Both the position numbers and the translations under genes were made by a program. DNA of 25,012 nucleotides from a virus: the IMG/VR virus record IMGVR_UViG_3300017769_000116, positions 1 to 25,012 of that record. One strand, given 5' to 3'. Shown one piece after another: positions 3,253 through 23,673 of the stretch (within the stretch, counting starts at the first letter, position 1; every line of letters begins with the position of its first letter). Below the pieces are notes generated by a model. It searched no databases. It was not told the DNA's origin and worked only from the letters and a program-made list of their open reading frames with translations.

Positions 3253-3459
3253 ATGGCAGATACAAGCGGCGCAAGACTAGCTATCAAACAAGAGCGAGAG
3301 AGTAGACAAAATCGCAAGAGTAATCCTGCGCCTGTTCAACAAAAAAATGCAGGTCTACTATCAAGAACTAGTATGTCTGAAAGTAAGGATGCAGAAGATA
3401 CTTTTTATTCAGATTTAATTATGCGTATTCAAAAAAATATGGGCGATAACAATGATTGA
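3253..3459 (+). CDS. Small hydrophilic hypothetical protein
   Basis: The 68-residue protein is strongly charged, with many K, R, S, D and E and no hydrophobic core or known motif. It starts MADTSGARLAIKQERESRQ. A good Shine-Dalgarno (GAGGAT) lies about 7 bases before the ATG. Its end overlaps the next gene by 8 bases, which fits coupled translation inside the late operon. I do not recognise the family. It is probably a minor virion or assembly protein, judged only from its neighbours. Confidence 0.6.
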   Translation: MADTSGARLAIKQERESRQNRKSNPAPVQQKNAGLLSRTSMSESKDAEDTFYSDLIMRIQKNMGDNND

Positions 3460-3970
3460 TAAAGAAGCACCTGCACCGTCTCTTGACTTACCTATTCCGG
3501 GGCAGAGTTTAACTGCACCTTTAGGTGAAAGACCGTGGCAAGCCCCACCTAGATTTAGTACAGTAGAGAAGACACTAGAGTATTATATTCCTAAACTAAC
3601 TTCTGACCGCATGGCTGGTCAGGCACTAGACTTGCTTGAGTCAGGCGTACCTGTAGATACTCTTGTTGATACTATTCAACTAGGAGGAGTTATGGAAGGT
3701 ATACACAGTGTGGATGTAGGTATACTAGCTTCTCCCGTATTAGCGGAAGTACTTCACCAGATGGCTAAATCAGCAGGTGTAAAGCATAAAATTGTAGGTG
3801 AAGAGATTGACCCAAATATTCCTGACTCATCTGAAATTTCTATGGCTATGAAAGAGGTAGCTAAGAAGAAAGGTGAAAGCATGGCAGAGGATACTACCCC
3901 TGTGGTAGAGGAAGTGCCTATGGATGAAATGGTAGAAGAGCCTAAAGGCTTAATGACACGGAGAGCATAG
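3452..3970 (+). CDS. Conserved marine phage virion-type protein (PGQSLT family look)
   Basis: This 172-residue protein begins with a proline-rich segment (LPIPGQSLTAPLGERPWQ.PP, residues 14-33), continues with a helical core (VEKTLEYYIPKL..., VMEGIHSVDVGILASPVLAEVL) and ends in an acidic tail (EEVPMDEMVEEPKGLM). The opening motif and the 'MEG.HSVDVG' block are familiar from uncharacterised proteins of marine podoviruses and cyanophages, encoded among structural genes. The function is not known. It overlaps the previous gene by 8 bases and its stop is one base before the next ATG, so it belongs to the same transcript. Confidence 0.62.
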   Translation: MIDKEAPAPSLDLPIPGQSLTAPLGERPWQAPPRFSTVEKTLEYYIPKLTSDRMAGQALDLLESGVPVDTLVDTIQLGGVMEGIHSVDVGILASPVLAEVLHQMAKSAGVKHKIVGEEIDPNIPDSSEISMAMKEVAKKKGESMAEDTTPVVEEVPMDEMVEEPKGLMTRRA

Positions 3971-3971
3971 T

Positions 3972-5132
3972 ATGGGTTTTGCAGGATTATCTTTTTTAGG
4001 CGGGGCAGCTAAACGTGGCTCTGAGATACTACAAGAAGAGCGTGATAATGTTGAGCGAGTTACTGACAGTGCGTTAAAGTTCTGGACAGAAACAGGTATT
4101 GGTAAATACAACGAAAGAAAAAACAAGCGTAAAGATTTGTCTATGAAGTTTGATACACTTGTAAACAATGGTTTTTCTGGGGACCAAATAGATGTCATAG
4201 CACGTGAAGGTGGTGTTGATAAGGTATTAAATCATATTGAAGCTATGAAGGCTTCAAAACTACCTGTAAAACCTGCTGATATTGTACGTATGTCAGGGGA
4301 TTATAAAGAAACAGGAAGAACCAAAGACGAAATTATCTCAGGCTACATGGGTAGAGTAAATCGTGGTATGAATATGTCTGATGCTCTGTCTGAATCAGGT
4401 GTTAAAAGTACAGGTTTTTTAGGACAAGACCTAACTAAAATTGCACGTAAAAGAGCAGAGGCTGTTGGTAGTGCTTTTGGTATGCCTATGGGTGAGTTAC
4501 GTGCATTAGCAACTGACGACATTACTATGGACCCTGCTGTAGTCACAGGACAACTATTTTTAGAAGACCCTGTAGCAGCAGCACGTGCTGAAACAACTAT
4601 AGAAGGTAAAGAAACAGGTGCATTTACACAAGGTTCTGCTATGAGAGCCTTGCAAAAACGTGCTGGTGTAGCATTAGGTGTTGACTTAGCCTTTGACCAA
4701 GCTGGAAATCCTATATTCTCAGCAGATAAAGCAGACCTTGCAGCACAAGCATTAGATATAGGAAGAAAAGCTACTGTTGGTTATCAATCTCGCAGAGAAG
4801 AAGATAAAAAAATAACGTCTATTCAAGCACTAGACGCTGCTACTGAAGATATGTTAGCAGGAATATCTAATGTGAGTAATAATCCCCCTTCTTCATCGTT
4901 GGTTGTACAACCGTCCTCTACTGTAGGAACAGGAGTGTATGGGGGCATGACTACTAGTTCTATTCAGGCTCAGGTATTAAAAGATGCTAAAGGTTTATCT
5001 TTACGGCAACAAGTACAAATACTAAATCAAGCTAGAAATGGACTGATACAGGACTTACAAAAGTCCATGACACCTGCAGATGCAGCAGTTGAAGCAGACA
5101 AAATAATCGACAGACTTGAGAGCCAGCTTTAA
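3972..5132 (+). CDS. Putative internal virion protein, helical, 386 aa
   Basis: A short glycine-rich, hydrophobic N-terminus (GFAGLSFLGGAAKRG) is followed by long charged helices (about 15-60 and 240-386). The middle (about 75-200) is of mixed character with no catalytic motif that I recognise. Genes in this position of HMO-2011-type and related podoviruses encode virion proteins of unknown detailed role, several thought to be ejected with the DNA. That assignment is inference from order and composition. The stop codon's last base is the first base of the next ATG (TAATG). Confidence 0.55.
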   Translation: MGFAGLSFLGGAAKRGSEILQEERDNVERVTDSALKFWTETGIGKYNERKNKRKDLSMKFDTLVNNGFSGDQIDVIAREGGVDKVLNHIEAMKASKLPVKPADIVRMSGDYKETGRTKDEIISGYMGRVNRGMNMSDALSESGVKSTGFLGQDLTKIARKRAEAVGSAFGMPMGELRALATDDITMDPAVVTGQLFLEDPVAAARAETTIEGKETGAFTQGSAMRALQKRAGVALGVDLAFDQAGNPIFSADKADLAAQALDIGRKATVGYQSRREEDKKITSIQALDAATEDMLAGISNVSNNPPSSSLVVQPSSTVGTGVYGGMTTSSIQAQVLKDAKGLSLRQQVQILNQARNGLIQDLQKSMTPADAAVEADKIIDRLESQL

Positions 5133-8100
5133 TGCTAAAAAATTATAATCAGATAGAAGAATTAGATAAAGAAACACTAGCATCCGACCCTGAGTTTTTA
5201 CAAGATGCTAGTCTTTTTTTGCGTGAACGTGAGAATATGGATGCTACTGCTTCTCCTGAAGAAGTGTATGATGCCTTCATGGAACACATGCGGTATCAGG
5301 ATGTCAATGAAGTAACTGCTATCCGTGACCTTGAATATGCACAAGGTGCAGACTTAGAGGGTAAGCAACGATTTGGTAGATTGATTGATGCTTATGATAA
5401 AGTAAATGAAGATGTATCAGGCCGTATGATGTGGGATTATGCAGCAGGGGTATTGACTGCACCATCTACTTACTTAGGTATTGTATCAGGTGGTACAGGT
5501 AAAGCTGCTTCTATGGCGGGTACACAAGCAGCAAAGCTAGGCATTCGTAAAATTCTTTCAGAAGGTTTAAAATCTGCAGGACGTGCTGCAGTTGTAGAGG
5601 GTGCTATAGGTACAGGACAAGGTGCTGTGCAGGGTGCTACTCGTGTTGAAACCGGAATGAAAGATGAGTCTGTTCTTGAGAGAGCAGCTATTACTGGACT
5701 AGGTTCTGCTATAGGTGGTGGTCTTATAAACTTTCCTATAGGTATGCTTGCCGCTAAAAAAGCAGCAAAAGCAGACGAACTTCTTGAAAGTTCTCGAATA
5801 GCCAGTTCTGCGAAAGCTAATGAAGCATCTAAAAAATCAGAAGAAGTACTTGCTAACGCATCTTCTGAAAAAGTAAGTGAAATAAAAGAAGTTCTTAATG
5901 CATTAGACCCTACCAAGGTTGCTGAAGGTAGAAGACTGAAGCAGGATTTAGAACCGGGAGATACTCTTGAATCTGCTCTGGGTTCTGATGTAGTTAATAA
6001 TATTGCAGCAGCAGCTATCAGTGTTAAAGATAAACTGAAGTTACAAAAGGGAGAAAGAATAACCACTGCTCTACATAGATTAATCAGTGAAGATAAACTA
6101 TCTGAATTAACAGAGGTAAATAAAATTCTTGAGGAACACAACCTTAATGCTGACCAGTTTTCATTAGTATATTTAGCTGAAATATCTGACGCAGGTAGAA
6201 CTCTTGGCGCACAAGCACGTGTTAAAAAAGCACTAGGCGCAACACGTACAGTTAAACAGCCAGCAGATAAACTTATAGAGGAACTAGACGGTCTAAATAA
6301 AGCAGGTGTTACACCGTTAACAGCAGCAGATGCTAAAGAATTAAGTAAAGGTAAACAGTTTTTCCAAGACTTAGATAGGTTACGGCTAGGTGCTATGACA
6401 TCCCAGCTTGCCACAACTATGCGTAATAATATAGGTGGTGGCTTTCGTGTAGCTGTTGACTCTACAACACGTGCATTTGATAATATTGTTAATCTTAGAA
6501 ATCCTTTTGATGGCACATTTGATGTAGCCAAATATATGCTAAACCCCTACGAAGGTAAGGTTATAAGGCAGATGTTTGCAGAAAACTTTCCAGAAGAATC
6601 TGCTAAACTATTTAGAGAAGCCGCTGACTTAGCTGCTAAGACACCTAATGAAACAGTATTAGCTAATATAGGAAGAAAAATAAATTTCTTAAATACAGCA
6701 TCCGATAATATGTTTAAGCAGGCTATGATTTCTGCCTCTATAAAACGTAGGTTATCAGATGAGGGTGTAGATTTATATGATGTTATTTCCAAAGGAGACT
6801 TTGGTAAAATAGATGATGACATATTGCAAAAAGCCATTGCCGATTCTTACGAGTTTACATATCAGTCTTCTATGAGGGGTGATGATTGGTTTAGTAAAGG
6901 TGCAAGAGGTGTGATAAAAGCACACCAAGAAGTACCGTTTCTTATATCTGCTGTGATGCCTTTTCCACGCTTTATAGCTAACCAGTTAAAGTTTACTTTT
7001 CAACACGCACCACTGATTGGTATGTTACCTTTAGATAGGTTAGGCTCAAAGCTACCTGCAAGAACAACAAAAGAATATATAAAGGACAAGGCACCCAAAC
7101 AATTAACAGGTGCATTGATGCTTACTGCAGCATATCAGTGGAGAGCACATCAAGGTGATACTAATTACTGGTATGAAATAGATGATGGACAGGGTAATGT
7201 AATTGATGGACGTGCTGTGTACGGTCCTTTTGCACCATTCATGCTTGCTGCAGATTTGCTGTATCGTTATCAGCGTGGCACTATGCCTACCTCAATCAGC
7301 ACATACGTAAAGGATACCACACAGGCTTTACTTGGTTCTACTTTCAGAACAGGTGTAGGACTGTATGCTATAGATAAGCTGTATCAAGATGCTGCTAGTG
7401 GAAAACCACAGAAGGTTTTAGCAGAACTCATAGGAGATGTAGCGAATACATATACATTACCACTCGCTGTAGTAAAAGATTTTTATGGTCAGTTTGACCC
7501 TGAATCTCGTAAGATACCAGAGACACGCAGTGGTAGTGAAAACTTCTTAGACATAATATACAATCGTGCTACACGTTCTCTTCCAGATTTTCCTCTTAAT
7601 GACTATGATACTGCTGCCTTATCTGCGTTTGAAACAGGTGACTTATCTGCCGTTAATCCCATGGAAAAACAAGTATTTGGTTTTGGTAAGAGAAAAAAGA
7701 ATACTCTCACAAAAGAACTAGCAAAGTTATCTTTTACGCCTTATGATTTATATAAGAGAGAGTCCAATGATACGTTTGATTTATATGCGAGGCAGGAATT
7801 ATCAAAGGATGGTAGCGAATTTAATTTAGAGCAGCAGTTAGAAAAGCTAATACTAAGTGACGAATATGATAGATTATCTATAGAGGAAAAAAGATACCAG
7901 CTTAAAGTCGCTGCACAGGATTTGATAAACAAAGCAAAAGATATGGCACGGGATAGAGTAGAACGTGATGCTGACCTTAAAGATTTACCATACAGCGAAT
8001 TAGATAGAGATGATTTCCAGAGTGCTAGTGCTTTACAGCAAGGTAGAATAAACTCTATGTATAGAAAACAATTCGGTGGTAAGTCTGTGTCTGAAGACAA

Positions 8101-8197
8101 AGATAAAACTATAATAATAAATGGTAGAGAAGTTAATGTTATGCGGTGGGCCGCTGATACACTACGTAGTTTGCAGGGTAAGGCAGGTAGACTATAA
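5132..8197 (+). CDS. Large internal virion / DNA-ejection-type protein, 1021 aa
   Basis: This is the largest gene of the window. The N-terminal 95 residues are acidic and helical (SPEEVYDAFMEHMRYQDVNE). Residues about 100-210 are rich in glycine and alanine with long weakly hydrophobic runs (GLGSAIGGGLINFPIGMLAA), of a kind that can insert in or cross membranes. The rest is a long, mostly helical region with few recognisable motifs and a charged C-terminus. Size, position after smaller virion genes and the amphipathic stretches resemble the very large internal proteins of podoviruses (the role played by T7 gp16), but no lysozyme-like motif was seen. It starts inside the previous stop (TAATG) and ends the same way. 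Confidence 0.58.
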   Translation: MLKNYNQIEELDKETLASDPEFLQDASLFLRERENMDATASPEEVYDAFMEHMRYQDVNEVTAIRDLEYAQGADLEGKQRFGRLIDAYDKVNEDVSGRMMWDYAAGVLTAPSTYLGIVSGGTGKAASMAGTQAAKLGIRKILSEGLKSAGRAAVVEGAIGTGQGAVQGATRVETGMKDESVLERAAITGLGSAIGGGLINFPIGMLAAKKAAKADELLESSRIASSAKANEASKKSEEVLANASSEKVSEIKEVLNALDPTKVAEGRRLKQDLEPGDTLESALGSDVVNNIAAAAISVKDKLKLQKGERITTALHRLISEDKLSELTEVNKILEEHNLNADQFSLVYLAEISDAGRTLGAQARVKKALGATRTVKQPADKLIEELDGLNKAGVTPLTAADAKELSKGKQFFQDLDRLRLGAMTSQLATTMRNNIGGGFRVAVDSTTRAFDNIVNLRNPFDGTFDVAKYMLNPYEGKVIRQMFAENFPEESAKLFREAADLAAKTPNETVLANIGRKINFLNTASDNMFKQAMISASIKRRLSDEGVDLYDVISKGDFGKIDDDILQKAIADSYEFTYQSSMRGDDWFSKGARGVIKAHQEVPFLISAVMPFPRFIANQLKFTFQHAPLIGMLPLDRLGSKLPARTTKEYIKDKAPKQLTGALMLTAAYQWRAHQGDTNYWYEIDDGQGNVIDGRAVYGPFAPFMLAADLLYRYQRGTMPTSISTYVKDTTQALLGSTFRTGVGLYAIDKLYQDAASGKPQKVLAELIGDVANTYTLPLAVVKDFYGQFDPESRKIPETRSGSENFLDIIYNRATRSLPDFPLNDYDTAALSAFETGDLSAVNPMEKQVFGFGKRKKNTLTKELAKLSFTPYDLYKRESNDTFDLYARQELSKDGSEFNLEQQLEKLILSDEYDRLSIEEKRYQLKVAAQDLINKAKDMARDRVERDADLKDLPYSELDRDDFQSASALQQGRINSMYRKQFGGKSVSEDKDKTIIINGREVNVMRWAADTLRSLQGKAGRL

Positions 8198-10197
8198 TGA
8201 AAGCAAGAGATTTACAAGAAGCTGATAGATTATCTGAATCTGACCGTGAATTAGAGTATTCAATAGATGCTATAGAATTACCGTCAGAACAAAAGTTTCT
8301 ACGTATGCGTCAGGCTGAACCACAGACACTTGATGAAACTATCTCTGACCTACCTATGGTGGCAGAGCAGGCACTAGACTTCACACCTGTAGTGGGTGAT
8401 GTCAAAGCTATGATTGAGATACCAGAAGATATGCGTATGGCACGTGACCTTATGGAACAAGGTTATGATGAGGGTAGCATTATTGATATGGGTCTGGGTG
8501 CTGGCCTTGCTGGTCTAAGTCTAGCTGGTCCTGTGCCTATCATTGGTGATATAGGTGGTGTACTCAAGAAGGGTGTTAAAGCAACAGCCAAGGAAAGACT
8601 AGCTGACCAAACAGAACAAGTGTTTGACAAAGGTATCTCAGATAGAGGCAGAACAACTACATCAGTTGAAGATGCTGAGTTTACTGGTAAGGGTAAACGT
8701 CCTACACCTAAAGTGTTTCATGGTGCCAAGAGCATGGGTCAAGCACGAGACGCCGATGCACAGAGGTATGAAAAGTTACGCCGTGATTATAATGATACAT
8801 ACATAAACAACCCCGTAGATACATTATCAAAAGAATTAGCAGATGACACTGGTTTTATAAATGTTGATGACTTACTTGAAAAACAAGAAGTCGGTGCAAT
8901 ACAACTACCCATAGGTAATGTGGATGGTGAATTAGATACGATACCTGTTATATTTAAAAGAGATGGTGATAAAGTATCTGCGTATGCTATTGATACAGAT
9001 ACCATGAAGATACTAGATGAGAAAGAACCCATAGCTTCTGTGGAAACATATGATGGGGGTAAACGTCTACGTCCTGTTGAGATGCAAATGCAACTTATGA
9101 TTGGTTCCGATGACCTTTCTGTTGCCTCAGACATGGTAGGTGAGAAACGTATTGATGCTATCAAGCGTGAAGGTTTTAGACCTTATGTTGCTGACTACGA
9201 TTACCCAACGGATGAAAGTTTTGTAAGTGAAGTAGGTTTAGGTGGTAGAACTACAGGTGAACACGCTGAACTGAAACAGAAGATGTTGTCTACTTCTCGT
9301 GACCCACTTGTGGCAATGAAGCCTAACTTTGGTGGACGGGATACAGGTAATGTTGTGTATGCTGACTTGCCTGAAGGTGCCACTAGAGATATGACACCTA
9401 GAGAGTATACACTAGTTACTAATAATGATGTCTCAGCGCAGGACATGGTGGATGACGTACCAACAGGGCGTGAAGCATTACCCCCACTAGAGGAGGGTCA
9501 AGTAGGCTACCGACTACCTAAGAGTATACACTTAGAAGCTGAAGAAGCTATCGTCATGCCAGAGAACCTGAACGTCAAGGTGTTAGAAGACAACCCTGAG
9601 TTAGCCGCAAAGATACAGCGCGGTCAGGATATGGTCGATAATATTATTAGTGACGTAAAAGGTATGAGTAATCTTACAGATGACTTAACTAAACCTGCTG
9701 TACAAAAACTAGCATACAACAAAGTAAGAGACACCTTTAAAAATCTACAATCTCTTGGTCAATACACAGAGCAGTATGGCGCACGAGGTACTTATGATGA
9801 CCTGCTTGAGTCTTTTCTTGATGATGAAGCTACCTACCCTTTCTTTAAGAGTATTATATTTGATATGCCTGAACAAATGAAGAAAGGCACAGAGATGTCT
9901 AATAATATGACAGGCCTTCGTGAAGTTATGTTACGGATAAAACAGCAACGAATGCAGGGTGCTAGAGGTAAAGCATCTACAAAGTTACGTAACGTACCTG
10001 ATGATGTTATACGTAGGGCAGTCTTTGGTGGTGGTAAGGTAACAGATACAGAAAACAAAATGTTACAGAAAGCTGGCATAGATGTATTCTTTGATAATAG
10101 TGTTAACTTAGAAAAGCTAGGATATACTGACCTAAAGAAAATACTATTTGTAGGAACACAGAAGTTCAACAGAGGTGGGTTAGCCTCTCGCAAATAA
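8197..10197 (+). CDS. Virion-associated protein with candidate ADP-ribosyltransferase domain
   Basis: This 666-residue protein has an acidic N-terminus, a hydrophobic Gly/Ala stretch at about 95-125 (GLGAGLAGLSLAGPVPIIGD), and then a region with features of ADP-ribosyltransferase folds. These are VFHG at 173-176 (as in the first-strand 'Y/F-HG' motif), STSR at 365-368 (compare the STS motif) and EAEEAIVMP at 447-455 (compare the E.E motif followed by a hydrophobic strand). Such domains occur in polyvalent phage proteins injected into hosts. The first and second motifs are unusually far apart (about 190 residues), which implies an insertion or a false match, so the enzyme call is tentative. 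The C-terminal third is helical. It is the last gene of the late block; a terminator follows within 10 bases. Confidence 0.55.
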   Translation: MKARDLQEADRLSESDRELEYSIDAIELPSEQKFLRMRQAEPQTLDETISDLPMVAEQALDFTPVVGDVKAMIEIPEDMRMARDLMEQGYDEGSIIDMGLGAGLAGLSLAGPVPIIGDIGGVLKKGVKATAKERLADQTEQVFDKGISDRGRTTTSVEDAEFTGKGKRPTPKVFHGAKSMGQARDADAQRYEKLRRDYNDTYINNPVDTLSKELADDTGFINVDDLLEKQEVGAIQLPIGNVDGELDTIPVIFKRDGDKVSAYAIDTDTMKILDEKEPIASVETYDGGKRLRPVEMQMQLMIGSDDLSVASDMVGEKRIDAIKREGFRPYVADYDYPTDESFVSEVGLGGRTTGEHAELKQKMLSTSRDPLVAMKPNFGGRDTGNVVYADLPEGATRDMTPREYTLVTNNDVSAQDMVDDVPTGREALPPLEEGQVGYRLPKSIHLEAEEAIVMPENLNVKVLEDNPELAAKIQRGQDMVDNIISDVKGMSNLTDDLTKPAVQKLAYNKVRDTFKNLQSLGQYTEQYGARGTYDDLLESFLDDEATYPFFKSIIFDMPEQMKKGTEMSNNMTGLREVMLRIKQQRMQGARGKASTKLRNVPDDVIRRAVFGGGKVTDTENKMLQKAGIDVFFDNSVNLEKLGYTDLKKILFVGTQKFNRGGLASRK

Positions 10198-10200
10198 ACA

Positions 10201-10226
10201 AGGGGGCAATTAAGCCCCCTCTTTTT
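10201..10226. terminator. Intrinsic terminator between convergent operons
   Basis: A 7-bp perfect stem (AGGGGGC / GCCCCCT) with a 6-base loop (AATTAA) is followed on the + strand by C and five T residues. It lies 4 bases after the stop of the late-block gene and 5 bases past the end of mazG. On the - strand the hairpin is followed by TTGTTTAT, a weaker U-rich run, so it may also stop the opposing operon. Confidence 0.88.
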
Positions 10227-10230
10227 ATGT

Positions 10231-10605
10231 CTATCGTTTGTCTCCGCTACCGCTTATTGTACCTTTCTGTTTGCGTTCAAGTAGCTTGTCTCTGTTCTGT
10301 GCAGCAATCAGTGATAGTGGCATACCAAGGTCATTGGCAAGTGCAGCACAGTACCACAACACATCCCCTATCTCACTGGCTAACTGGTCCTTCCAATCAT
10401 CAGGCATATTCTCTGGGCCATCACGGATAATCTTCTTGACCTTGTTAGCTACCTCTCCTGCCTCACCTGCCATGCCCAATGCTGGGTACAGGATACGATG
10501 GGTATCAGGGTAGATGGCAGTCTCAACTGCTGTCTCTTGGTATTTATTAAAGTCCATCTTGTATTTCTCCTTCATCCAGTTATCAGCCTCGCTTTGCAAA
10601 CTCAT
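10231..10605 (-). CDS. mazG: MazG-like nucleotide pyrophosphohydrolase
   Basis: The 124-residue protein is a single all-helical MazG domain. The metal-binding signature is visible as E48-A-G-E51 and, after a helix, E78-I-G-D81 in ASEIGDVLWYCAALANDLG. Family members hydrolyse nucleoside triphosphates to monophosphates and pyrophosphate. In phages they have been proposed either to clean up non-canonical dNTPs or to alter (p)ppGpp signalling. The latter is debated. The chosen ATG has AAGGAG 7 bases upstream, inside the previous gene. An internal ATG (codon 17, 10557), also with a Shine-Dalgarno, would give a protein starting MDFNKYQE, closer to the usual family N-terminus. It is the last gene of the replication operon. 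Confidence 0.9.
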   Translation of the reverse strand: MSLQSEADNWMKEKYKMDFNKYQETAVETAIYPDTHRILYPALGMAGEAGEVANKVKKIIRDGPENMPDDWKDQLASEIGDVLWYCAALANDLGMPLSLIAAQNRDKLLERKQKGTISGSGDKR

Positions 10606-11122
10606 TGAACAACTCCTTGGTCTTAGCTGTAGTAATCTTAAACCATTCTCCTCGTCTCTCTAATGCACTGTCTGTAAACAGGTGGTGCATTTCTCTTTCT
10701 GCCTCGTGTCTGTTCTCCGCTTTCAATGTAGTAAGTATTGTGTAGTTGCGGAATGGTGATGATGTTTGGTATCCGTTTAGTCTATCCTCTGCATCAACAG
10801 CCTTGCCTACCTTAACCCACTCAGGCCATGCATCATTAACAATGGCGTACACTTCACCCTCATTAACACTCTCAATCTTATTGTGTGACCATGCATCATC
10901 AAGAGATTTGTAACGTCCTGCTTTATGTAGTGGATGAGATGCTGGTATGTATTTACCATTAACAAACATCCTGTTTTTATTCTTGGCTGCATGAGTAGAG
11001 ACACGTTGCCTGTAGCCACTAGGACTGTAGTACCACAAGTCGCCATCTTCTCTGGTGGCTTTTTGTTTTGTGTAATTAGTTATGCTCACTCCATCTTTCT
11101 GCATGACTTTAGCTAGTACCAT
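10583..11122 (-). CDS. GIY-YIG-like (T5orf172 / MUG113-type) protein
   Basis: The C-terminal half carries the GIY-YIG-like pattern: GEVYAIVN at about 89-96, VKVGKA at 103-108, an arginine in 'DRLNGYQTSSPF', a conserved helix with E (HEAEREMHHLF), and GEWFKI at 158-163. This matches the T5orf172/MUG113 branch, whose members are found in phages and are presumed DNA-binding or nuclease-like. The N-terminal 85 residues look like a separate, basic region. The start at 11122 is preferred because AAGGAG lies 7 bases upstream; an ATG two codons earlier (11128) sits only 2 bases from that site. The exact role is unknown. It may be a homing-type or host-DNA-cutting enzyme. It overlaps mazG by 23 bases. 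Confidence 0.75.
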   Translation of the reverse strand: MVLAKVMQKDGVSITNYTKQKATREDGDLWYYSPSGYRQRVSTHAAKNKNRMFVNGKYIPASHPLHKAGRYKSLDDAWSHNKIESVNEGEVYAIVNDAWPEWVKVGKAVDAEDRLNGYQTSSPFRNYTILTTLKAENRHEAEREMHHLFTDSALERRGEWFKITTAKTKELFNEFAKRG

Positions 11123-11237
11123 CTTCATTCTCCTTTTCTTTCTGTTTCATCCTCATCCATTCTTCATATTGTGGATGTCCTTTGTGTGGATTATGCTGAA
11201 CCCAATCTTCTCTAGACTTCCACATAGCATTACTCAT
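11109..11237 (-). CDS. Small hydrophilic protein, 42 aa, between thyX and the GIY-YIG gene
   Basis: A short frame reads MSNAMWKSREDWVQHNPHKG through to ...EEWMRMKQKEKENEDGTS. It starts inside the last codons of thyX (8-base overlap) and ends 14 bases inside the next gene, spanning an otherwise empty gap of about 100 bases. The downstream gene's AAGGAG is within its coding region, as seen at most junctions of this operon. A weak GAG-type ribosome site lies about 8 bases before the ATG. It has no recognised domain; the W/H/P-rich first half followed by a charged helix looks protein-like. Confidence is moderate because the frame is short. Confidence 0.5.
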   Translation of the reverse strand: MSNAMWKSREDWVQHNPHKGHPQYEEWMRMKQKEKENEDGTS

Positions 11238-21964: not shown

Positions 21965-22819
21965 TCATCTCCTCATGTTATGTAATCTAAATGCTTGACT
22001 TACCAGCTTGTCATACCACATCAAGTTATCCTTGAAGTGAGATGGTATATCCTCTAGTCCGTAGTGTGCGCCAGCTATCATGCCAGCTACAGCACCACAC
22101 GTATCGCTGTCGTGTCCTCTGTTGACCGCCTTGATAACGCAGTCGGCAAAGTTATTCGTAGTTTGGTACGCCCACATAGCACACTGATATGTCTCTACTA
22201 CATAGCCACCTGACATAACATCCTTCCTATCTGTGTTAAAGGGTAGGTTGTATGACTGATACCTTTGTAGTGCGTCACCGTGCCACAGTTGATGGGCGAA
22301 TACCCTGCTGTACTCAATACATTTAGGGCTACCGTGTGTCAGTATAGTCGTAGCAATAGCCAGTTCCATAGCACGTTCAGGTGTGGCTGATGCAATCACT
22401 GCAGGTGCAAGTCGCATCAAGGCACCGTTACCCGAAGCATCGTCAAATGATACAGAGTTATATGAGTAACCAGATTTATTGTTAATCCATTTCTCTATAG
22501 CGTCTTGTGTTGTAGTACCAATGTCAAAGCATTTACCTCTTGGTATAAACTCACCCTTCATGTACCAGTTGTACCAGTTGTGCATCATATCTTCTGGATT
22601 GAACTCTGCTAGATGGGTTGACAGTGAATCAGCCATAGCTAATGCCATAGCTGTATCATCTGTCCACTCACCGATGGACATATCGTGATGCCCACCAGTA
22701 ACATACTTAGTTATATAATCATCAGGTTCTCTAGCGTCCATGAACTCAAGGGGTGCGCCAAGAGCGTCACCCACTGCAAGTCCTACCATCATACCTGCTG
22801 ACTTGTCAAGTGTCAACAT
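21965..22819 (-). CDS. ADP-ribosylglycohydrolase (DraG/ARH family)
   Basis: The family removes ADP-ribose from modified arginine or other targets, using two magnesium ions. The metal-binding signature is complete: GLAVGDALGAPLEF (13-26), W52-T53-D54-D55-T56, GNGALMRLAP (130-139) and RGHDSDTCGAVAG (234-246, with D237, D239 and T240). The chosen start is ATG 22819, which shares a base with the previous stop (TAATG) and has GAGG 8 bases upstream. An upstream ATG would add 14 residues, lying over the DUF932 gene. Phage copies have been proposed to reverse host ADP-ribosylation, including defence-linked marks, or to control modification placed by a phage enzyme. The specific target cannot be read from the sequence. 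Confidence 0.92.
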   Translation of the reverse strand: MLTLDKSAGMMVGLAVGDALGAPLEFMDAREPDDYITKYVTGGHHDMSIGEWTDDTAMALAMADSLSTHLAEFNPEDMMHNWYNWYMKGEFIPRGKCFDIGTTTQDAIEKWINNKSGYSYNSVSFDDASGNGALMRLAPAVIASATPERAMELAIATTILTHGSPKCIEYSRVFAHQLWHGDALQRYQSYNLPFNTDRKDVMSGGYVVETYQCAMWAYQTTNNFADCVIKAVNRGHDSDTCGAVAGMIAGAHYGLEDIPSHFKDNLMWYDKLVSQAFRLHNMRR

Positions 22820-23673
22820 TATGCTGCCTCTAGTTGTCTGAACACAGGGCTTGCAATCCACTGAGACACTTGGTTCTCACGATTGAACATGGACACAGCC
22901 TGTGTGTCATTGCCTGTGTTGCGTAGGTTAAAGCCGTTACGCTCATCCGCATAGGTTGCATAGTTAGTAAAGGCACTATACAAAGCAAACAGATTACGCC
23001 CTCTGGTACTCACCTCTTGGTTGTATAAGGTATACATCTTGGTAGCCTTAGTGTCTGACTTCATAAGGGTTTCAAGCAATGCCTTGACATCTACTGTGTT
23101 AAGGTCACGCCTTGCCCACGATTGTAGACGCTCTGACTGTGCATAGAAGTCCTGCTGTGAGTTACGTAAGTCAGAGATGAACCTGTCCATGCTAAAGTTA
23201 GATGTGTTCTTACGCCGCACCTTGTCATGCTCACCTCTAATCATACCATTGAGGCAGAAGAAGTCGATAGCCCCAAAGAATACTGTGTTAGAACAGCTAC
23301 CGTCAATCCCATGCAGTGCAATGATACGCTGTGAGATAGTAGTCTCATGCTTGTCAGTGGTGATAGTGGTGGACACGTTAGGCATACGCACATCCATCAT
23401 AGCCCATGCATTCTTACGTGCATACTTCCACTCAATTTGTGCGCCATCTGTCTCAGTACTTGTCAAGTTCTCTAGCATGGTATCTTGTACGCCATGAAAG
23501 AAGTCCTTGTGTGAGGCACAGTTGAAGCCCTCGCCTACAATACCAATGTATTCATCTGTCTCGCTGTTGATGACATACTTCTTATCCTTCACCTTGGTAG
23601 GCTCGTAAGCTACGGCAAAGTCTAAGTGTTCTGGAACCTGTTCAATTATTTGTGTTGTAAAATCTAATGGCAT
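22819..23673 (-). CDS. DUF932-family phage protein
   Basis: The 284-residue protein matches the DUF932 pattern of phage and plasmid proteins: a mixed alpha/beta N-terminus (KKYVINSETDEYIGIVGEGF), a block ALHGIDGSCSNTVFFGAIDF (119-138) and the conserved cysteine motif C140-L-N-G-M144, followed by a helical C-terminal half. The function is unknown; no catalytic motif is recognised. It is the first gene behind the sigma70-type promoter, with GAGGAG 6 bases from the ATG and a leader of only about 23 bases, so it should be among the earliest and best expressed genes of the operon. An early takeover role is inference. Confidence 0.8.
   Translation of the reverse strand: MPLDFTTQIIEQVPEHLDFAVAYEPTKVKDKKYVINSETDEYIGIVGEGFNCASHKDFFHGVQDTMLENLTSTETDGAQIEWKYARKNAWAMMDVRMPNVSTTITTDKHETTISQRIIALHGIDGSCSNTVFFGAIDFFCLNGMIRGEHDKVRRKNTSNFSMDRFISDLRNSQQDFYAQSERLQSWARRDLNTVDVKALLETLMKSDTKATKMYTLYNQEVSTRGRNLFALYSAFTNYATYADERNGFNLRNTGNDTQAVSMFNRENQVSQWIASPVFRQLEAA

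Follow-up and report, generated by a model that had tools for sequence, protein, structure and literature searches.

What is the protein encoded directly after an internal virion protein gene in the virus record IMGVR_UViG_3300017769_000116, and what would it do for the phage? The window, by which we mean the whole 25,012-base stretch analyzed, is of the HMO-2011 type, since its DNA polymerase shares 77.5% identity with the polymerase of Puniceispirillum phage HMO-2011. The consulted parts of PMC9038755 count phages of this type among the dominant marine virus groups. A sequence-only reading had proposed an ADP-ribosyltransferase (ART) domain inside the product of the open reading frame (ORF) at 8197..10197 (+ strand; 666 aa). 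Our analyses indicate that this ORF is most likely a member of a so far unnamed ADP-ribosyltransferase family of HMO-2011-type marine podoviruses. We consider it rather probable that the ART is made late, loaded into the virion with gp16-like proteins and ejected, and that it modifies a host macromolecule, the mark being reversed by an ADP-ribosylhydrolase (ARH) encoded in the same genome.

The three motifs of the sequence-only reading lie at the residues it gave: VFHG at 173-176 (8713..8724), STSR at 365-368 (9289..9300) and EAEEAIVMP at 447-455 (9535..9561), the last within the longer motif HLEAEEAIVMP (9529..9561), all on the + strand. A direct search of viral contigs with the window protein matched L001 alone (best segment 93% identical), and further relatives were recruited via neighboring genes and profiles. 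In alignment A7, which compares 27 relatives over 309 window residues, 17 of the 309 are invariant, among them H175, S365, R368, H445, E447 and E449. Because so few residues are invariant and those of the motifs are among them, the motifs represent more than chance. Departures concern G176, replaced by A in 2/27, T366, kept in 23/27, and S367, which is A in 2/27. A divergent subfamily fetched later (L278, L282 and L285 were read) has L in place of R368 and keeps H, SxS and HxExE. The ratio of nonsynonymous to synonymous changes (dN/dS) in the ART core is 0.14-0.20 in four of five pairs.

The distance between VFHG and STSR had been held to weaken the case. The gap is an insertion: L162, L163 and L138-L140 do without the extra domain, and their His motif and STSR are about 60-80 residues apart. 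The inserted domain (about residues 185-310; 8749..9126, + strand), present in the window and most relatives, separates the first strand from the following ART helix, which ends in EGF. It is the most confident part of the full-length model, with a predicted local distance difference test score (pLDDT) of about 88. L141 has a different insertion at the gap, which looks ParB-like; this label, also given to L288, was assigned by eye.

An ART-like core, which the sequence-only reading had made a decisive point, was looked for in L163, a compact homologue that shares 37% identity with the window protein over the ART domain. Modelled with a 27-row alignment, L163 reached a mean pLDDT of 75.9 and a predicted template modelling score (pTM) of 0.75. 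The best 50 of 191 Foldseek matches of this model in the PDB are all ARTs by title; two entries among the matches, the toxin 8gug and one insecticidal protein, we take to be ARTs. A second look at the same matches with VIA-align gave 50/50 ARTs by title among the matches listed, the best being diphtheria toxin (Z 7.9, root-mean-square deviation 3.7 over 126 residues). The alignments pair L163 model residue 5 with residue 14 of diphtheria toxin, 2 with 430 of exotoxin A and 7 with 1026 of tankyrase-2 at their starts. Read without gaps, they place the family His on the catalytic His21, His440 and His1031, respectively. In BFVD, the L163 model and the full-length window model share their top match, a phage protein named "Large polyvalent protein associated domain" (E 1e-5 and prob 1.00 for L163; E 0.017 and prob 0.99 for the window protein). 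The compact homologue thus supports an ART alpha/beta fold as predicted for the family.

The position of the ART gene suggests a way of delivery. Its start codon overlaps the stop codon of a gene for a gp16-like (internal virion protein D-like) protein of 1021 aa (5132..8197, + strand). Residues 9-179 of this protein match the "putative internal virion D" of LUZ100 (E 3e-10), and proteins of CRP-2, CRP-13 and HMO-2011 also match. We examined the slot after this gene in 80 loci fetched by the gp16-like protein. Among the 74 that were testable, the slot holds an ART in 30, the N-terminal module of the window protein (N-module) without ART in nine, other cargo in eight and nothing in 27. A first set, comprising 88 loci recovered with a different late gene plus eight cultured phages, had 60 testable loci: five with ART, three with the N-module alone and 52 with neither, of which L048, L082 and L083 carry other cargo. 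In these relatives, the slot holds interchangeable cargo: an ART, an HExxH protein, others or nothing.

The HExxH proteins occur at L048:17115-19217, L082:10530-12878, L262:9207-11648 and L277:7893-10634, and some end in a GYDP-RRG-FYDR-type domain. They are called metallopeptidase-like (L048, L082, L262, L274 and L277) from the motif, with weak PHROG matches for L048 and L082 only, and a Pfam scan of the L048 and L082 proteins gave no relevant match.

The window protein itself consists of an N-terminal hydrophobic module, the ART domain with its inserted domain, a C-terminal helical region and a C-terminal tag. The N-module (residues 48-140; 8338..8616, + strand; alignment A5, 21 sequences) is also found in L110, L111, L036, L041 and L052, and it is common to proteins with other C-terminal domains or with none. 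Two 1203-aa proteins (L135:535-4146 and L136:4746-8357) are built of N-module, ART and a second N-module, and a gp16-like protein (L066:5866-9528) has an N-module-like stretch at residues 207-283. The ART gene has been exchanged: the ARTs of the window and L001 are 93% identical and their gp16-like proteins 45.6%; high DNA identity starts at 8352, inside the ORF. The ART forms the front part of a fusion with a head protein like gp49 of HMO-2011 in L099, L124, L127 and L130-L133; this gp49-like protein follows the portal gene, and the gp48 homologue comes next in all four contigs that reach far enough (L099, L124, L130 and L132). The ART is thus encoded among virion genes, after the gp16-like gene, and also fused to one of them, beside the portal gene.

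The C terminus points the same way. The window protein ends in FNRGGLASRK (10165..10194, + strand), in which GGLASRK is a variant of GLM[AS]RR, and a conserved small late protein of 172 aa, encoded two genes upstream of the gp16-like gene (3452..3970, + strand), ends in GLMTRRA. With the tag defined as G[LIM][MAV][SATGV][RKHP] within the last 14 residues, 40 of the 42 distinct complete cargo proteins in the second set carry it (shuffled copies, 22/21,000), and so do 81 of the 82 distinct small late proteins identified by synteny. The tag is found in 6/98 copies of the gene between the small late protein and the gp16-like gene, in 0/85 gp16-like proteins and in 25/812 other ORFs, these last being, by eye, further copies of the small late protein and the intervening gene. 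HMO-2011, which has no cargo, has a single tagged protein among its 74, namely the small late protein. Because many ART copies owe their common tail to descent, independent support comes from the unrelated cargo types and the small protein that share it. Unrelated late proteins with a GLM[AS]RR-like tail include the small late protein of the window and the cargo of L048, L082, L262, L274, L277, L271 and L288. A literature search on "GLMARR" alone found nothing relevant. We suggest that the tag probably serves virion loading. The suggestion of the sequence-only reading that the enzyme is delivered with the virion thus gains backing from the gene context, the head-protein fusions and the shared C-terminal tag. 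A broader proposal, which we put forward tentatively and with some doubt, is a cargo-loading system in which the GLM[AS]RR tag, common to the effectors and a conserved small internal protein, would route interchangeable slot effectors into the virion for ejection, the ART would represent a third active-site type (H/SxS/ExE), and an early-made ARH would erase marks written at entry.

The predicted eraser is a 298-residue protein of the ARH/DraG type (21965..22861, - strand; PF03747, E=3.6e-61; TDDT and DSDT motifs). When 100 records were searched, ARH was present in 10 of 46 that carry the ART (the window and nine others) and in none of 54 that do not; most ART-carrying records without it are short fragments. 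We considered the ARH locus testable where the record holds a primase homologue with at least 2.3 kb upstream, a room rule that was set after the hits were seen, its value being taken from the shortest positive. For want of room, G016, G034, G073, G078 and G091 were excluded, as was G090 for a spurious match. ARH then occurs in 10 of 13 testable records with the ART and in 0 of 25 without. On supported branches of a primase tree, from which the second set is absent, three independent pairs are available, and ARH goes with the ART in 2.8 of them on average and never against it. In one close pair, whose replication DNA shares 86% identity over 4 kb, ART and ARH occur together in G001, and G020 carries HExxH cargo but lacks ARH. 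None of 19 ART-carrying records searched for a Macro-domain eraser had one, and the genes beside the empty ARH locus of G006 gave no ADP-ribose-related Pfam match.

A DraG-like ARH was reported in 2022 in five HMO-2011-type genomes, its function being unclear and no partner being given in the consulted parts of PMC9038755, where ADP-ribosyl transferases come up only in explaining the ARH. The window ARH is presumably of the same kind. It might be unrelated to the ART and counter host ADP-ribosylation defenses; three testable ART-carrying records do without ARH, and phage ARGs could act on host adducts according to the portion of PMC9503650 consulted. We regard this as rather unlikely, since no ARH was found in the 54 ART-less records, including the 25 with a testable locus.

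From the family conservation, the ART-type predicted fold, the cargo slot, the shared tag, the head-protein fusions and the hydrolase association, all of them computed, we infer a course of events that involves catalysis, packaging, ejection, a target and timing. Made late, the ART would enter the virion along with the gp16-like internal proteins, its C-terminal GLM[AS]RR-like tag being the probable means. It would be ejected into the host with the phage DNA and would there transfer ADP-ribose from NAD+ to a host macromolecule. The ARH of the replication block may then strip the modification, either timing it or protecting the producing cell. RNA polymerase is a possible target by analogy with T4 Alt, as described in the consulted parts of PMC5512222.

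Several results weigh against this interpretation. The full-length window model has a mean pLDDT of 60.6 and a poor ART core, and in the PDB it found helical matches only, at residues 466-661, which were rejected as uninformative. The Foldseek matches of the L163 model are individually weak (best E 0.24, none of 191 at or below 0.001). No ART family was matched by Pfam over the 27 members, and the family profile found no ART in the PDB, its best row (E 1.7) being another kind of protein. The ART cores of the window and L001 differ by dN 0.016 and dS 0.009, which is not enough change to reveal selection. The slot is empty in all eight cultured relatives examined, and they have no ART gene. The testable ART-carrying records without ARH are G006, G069 and G074, the last two in the divergent subfamily. 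Finally, the Fisher p-value of the ART-ARH association (6e-7) is inflated by relatedness, shared ancestry being not fully removed, and a sign test on the three independent pairs is not significant.

Other searches were likewise negative. The window protein matched no ART family in Pfam, PHROGs or the PDB, its sole Pfam row being Z1 (E 0.17). The profile comparison with ART-PolyVal (PF18760) suggested by the sequence-only reading gave no support, 0/27 members matching at E up to 10. A tblastn search of 50,697 phage records with the window protein, L163 and L138 found no relative in any cultured phage, and a bacterial-genome scan gave four candidates, none of which was confirmed. An hhalign comparison of the family with L186 (DUF3990/ART-PolyVal-like) aligned 12 residues with probability 0.4 and was not counted. 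Our literature search found no paper joining HMO-2011-type phages with an ADP-ribosyltransferase.

An active ART could also remain unpackaged: made late, it would act in the infected cell, for example against superinfecting phages or as a toxin with ARH as its antidote. The ARH association would suit this, as would the ART-ARG pair of some Aeromonas phages described in the consulted parts of PMC9503650. It is unlikely, in our judgment, given the slot directly after the gp16-like gene, the contigs in which the ART is fused to a head protein beside the portal, the tag shared with the conserved small late protein and the HExxH proteins swapped into the same slot. Quite improbable is a structural or scaffold protein of the virion with an inactive ART fold, whose conserved residues would be structural. 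R368 is lost in one subfamily, L103 has SAA for STS, and large variable regions surround the core, all of which would suit such a protein; however, H and ExE never change in a family where most other positions do, the ART tracks with ARH, and the slot is empty in 27 of the 74 relatives, so that its protein is dispensable for virion building. That three short motifs were ordered by chance and there is no ART, as the lack of a sequence-level family match might suggest, is very improbable, since the motifs are invariant across a diverse family and the predicted fold, which already contradicts this explanation, matches ARTs only among the matches listed.

Beyond these genes, a terminator-like hairpin (10200..10221, both strands), identified by consensus match only, begins 3 nt past the ART stop codon. 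No Rfam family or tRNA was found in the window. A protein with a T5orf172/MUG113 domain (10583-11128, - strand; E 3e-9 and 2e-10) is encoded between the MazG and ThyX genes.

Packaged ARTs are known or predicted mainly from contractile-tailed phages, as far as the consulted parts of PMC9503650 go. If the mechanism that we favor, a virion-delivered ART with a co-encoded eraser, is true, packaged ARTs extend to HMO-2011-type podoviruses, where their active site is unusual; the ARH described in 2022, so far an orphan, gains a partner; and a short peptide tag becomes a testable loading signal for proteins of short-tailed phages.

Known ARTs are split into H-H-h, H-Y-[EDQ] and R-S-E clades in the same portion of PMC9503650. 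To the active site of the window family, strand 1 contributes H, strand 2 SxS and strand 5 ExE. A conserved H or R in strand 1 and an acidic residue in a late strand characterize the superfamily, and H175, E447 and E449 are present in 27/27. The family is a member of the ART superfamily by predicted fold and motif order, and by defining residues it lies outside both macromolecule-modifying clades, H-Y-[EDQ] and R-S-E, because strand 1 has His (27/27) and not Arg and strand 2 lacks the Tyr, positions 363-367 being M/L/A, L/M/I, S, T/F/A/L and S/A in the 27 sequences. The SxS and ExE motifs of the R-S-E clade are found, with S365 in 27/27, S367 in 25/27 and both E447 and E449 in 27/27.

T4 Alt, of the R-S-E clade, is a virion-packaged phage ART with SxS and ExE-type motifs; the window protein resembles it in these motifs and would likewise be packaged and injected. 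The window family differs in its strand-1 H in place of R, shows no detectable sequence relation, sits in a podovirus late block and has an ARH in the same genome. ART-PolyVal (H-Y-D; prototype Roseovarius Plymouth podovirus 1) is similar in its strand-1 His, virion-type cargo and effector-domain swapping, whereas the window family lacks the conserved strand-2 Tyr and has a strand-5 Glu (ExE) where ART-PolyVal has Asp. L111 combines the N-module with part of an ART-PolyVal-like domain (PF18760, E 0.0039, below the cut-off and at a contig end). The H-Y-E folds of diphtheria toxin, exotoxin A and the PARP type are the best structural neighbors, their His matching at the alignment start, but the window family has no strand-2 Tyr, and the identity is about 10-16%; a shared target is not implied. 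Finally, DraT-DraG and the phage ART-ARG pairs likewise bring writer and ARH-type eraser together within a genome, as do the window, with its PF03747 match, and most of the testable ART-carrying records; in the window, however, the two genes lie about 12 kb from each other and on different strands, with the writer in the late block and the eraser in the replication block.
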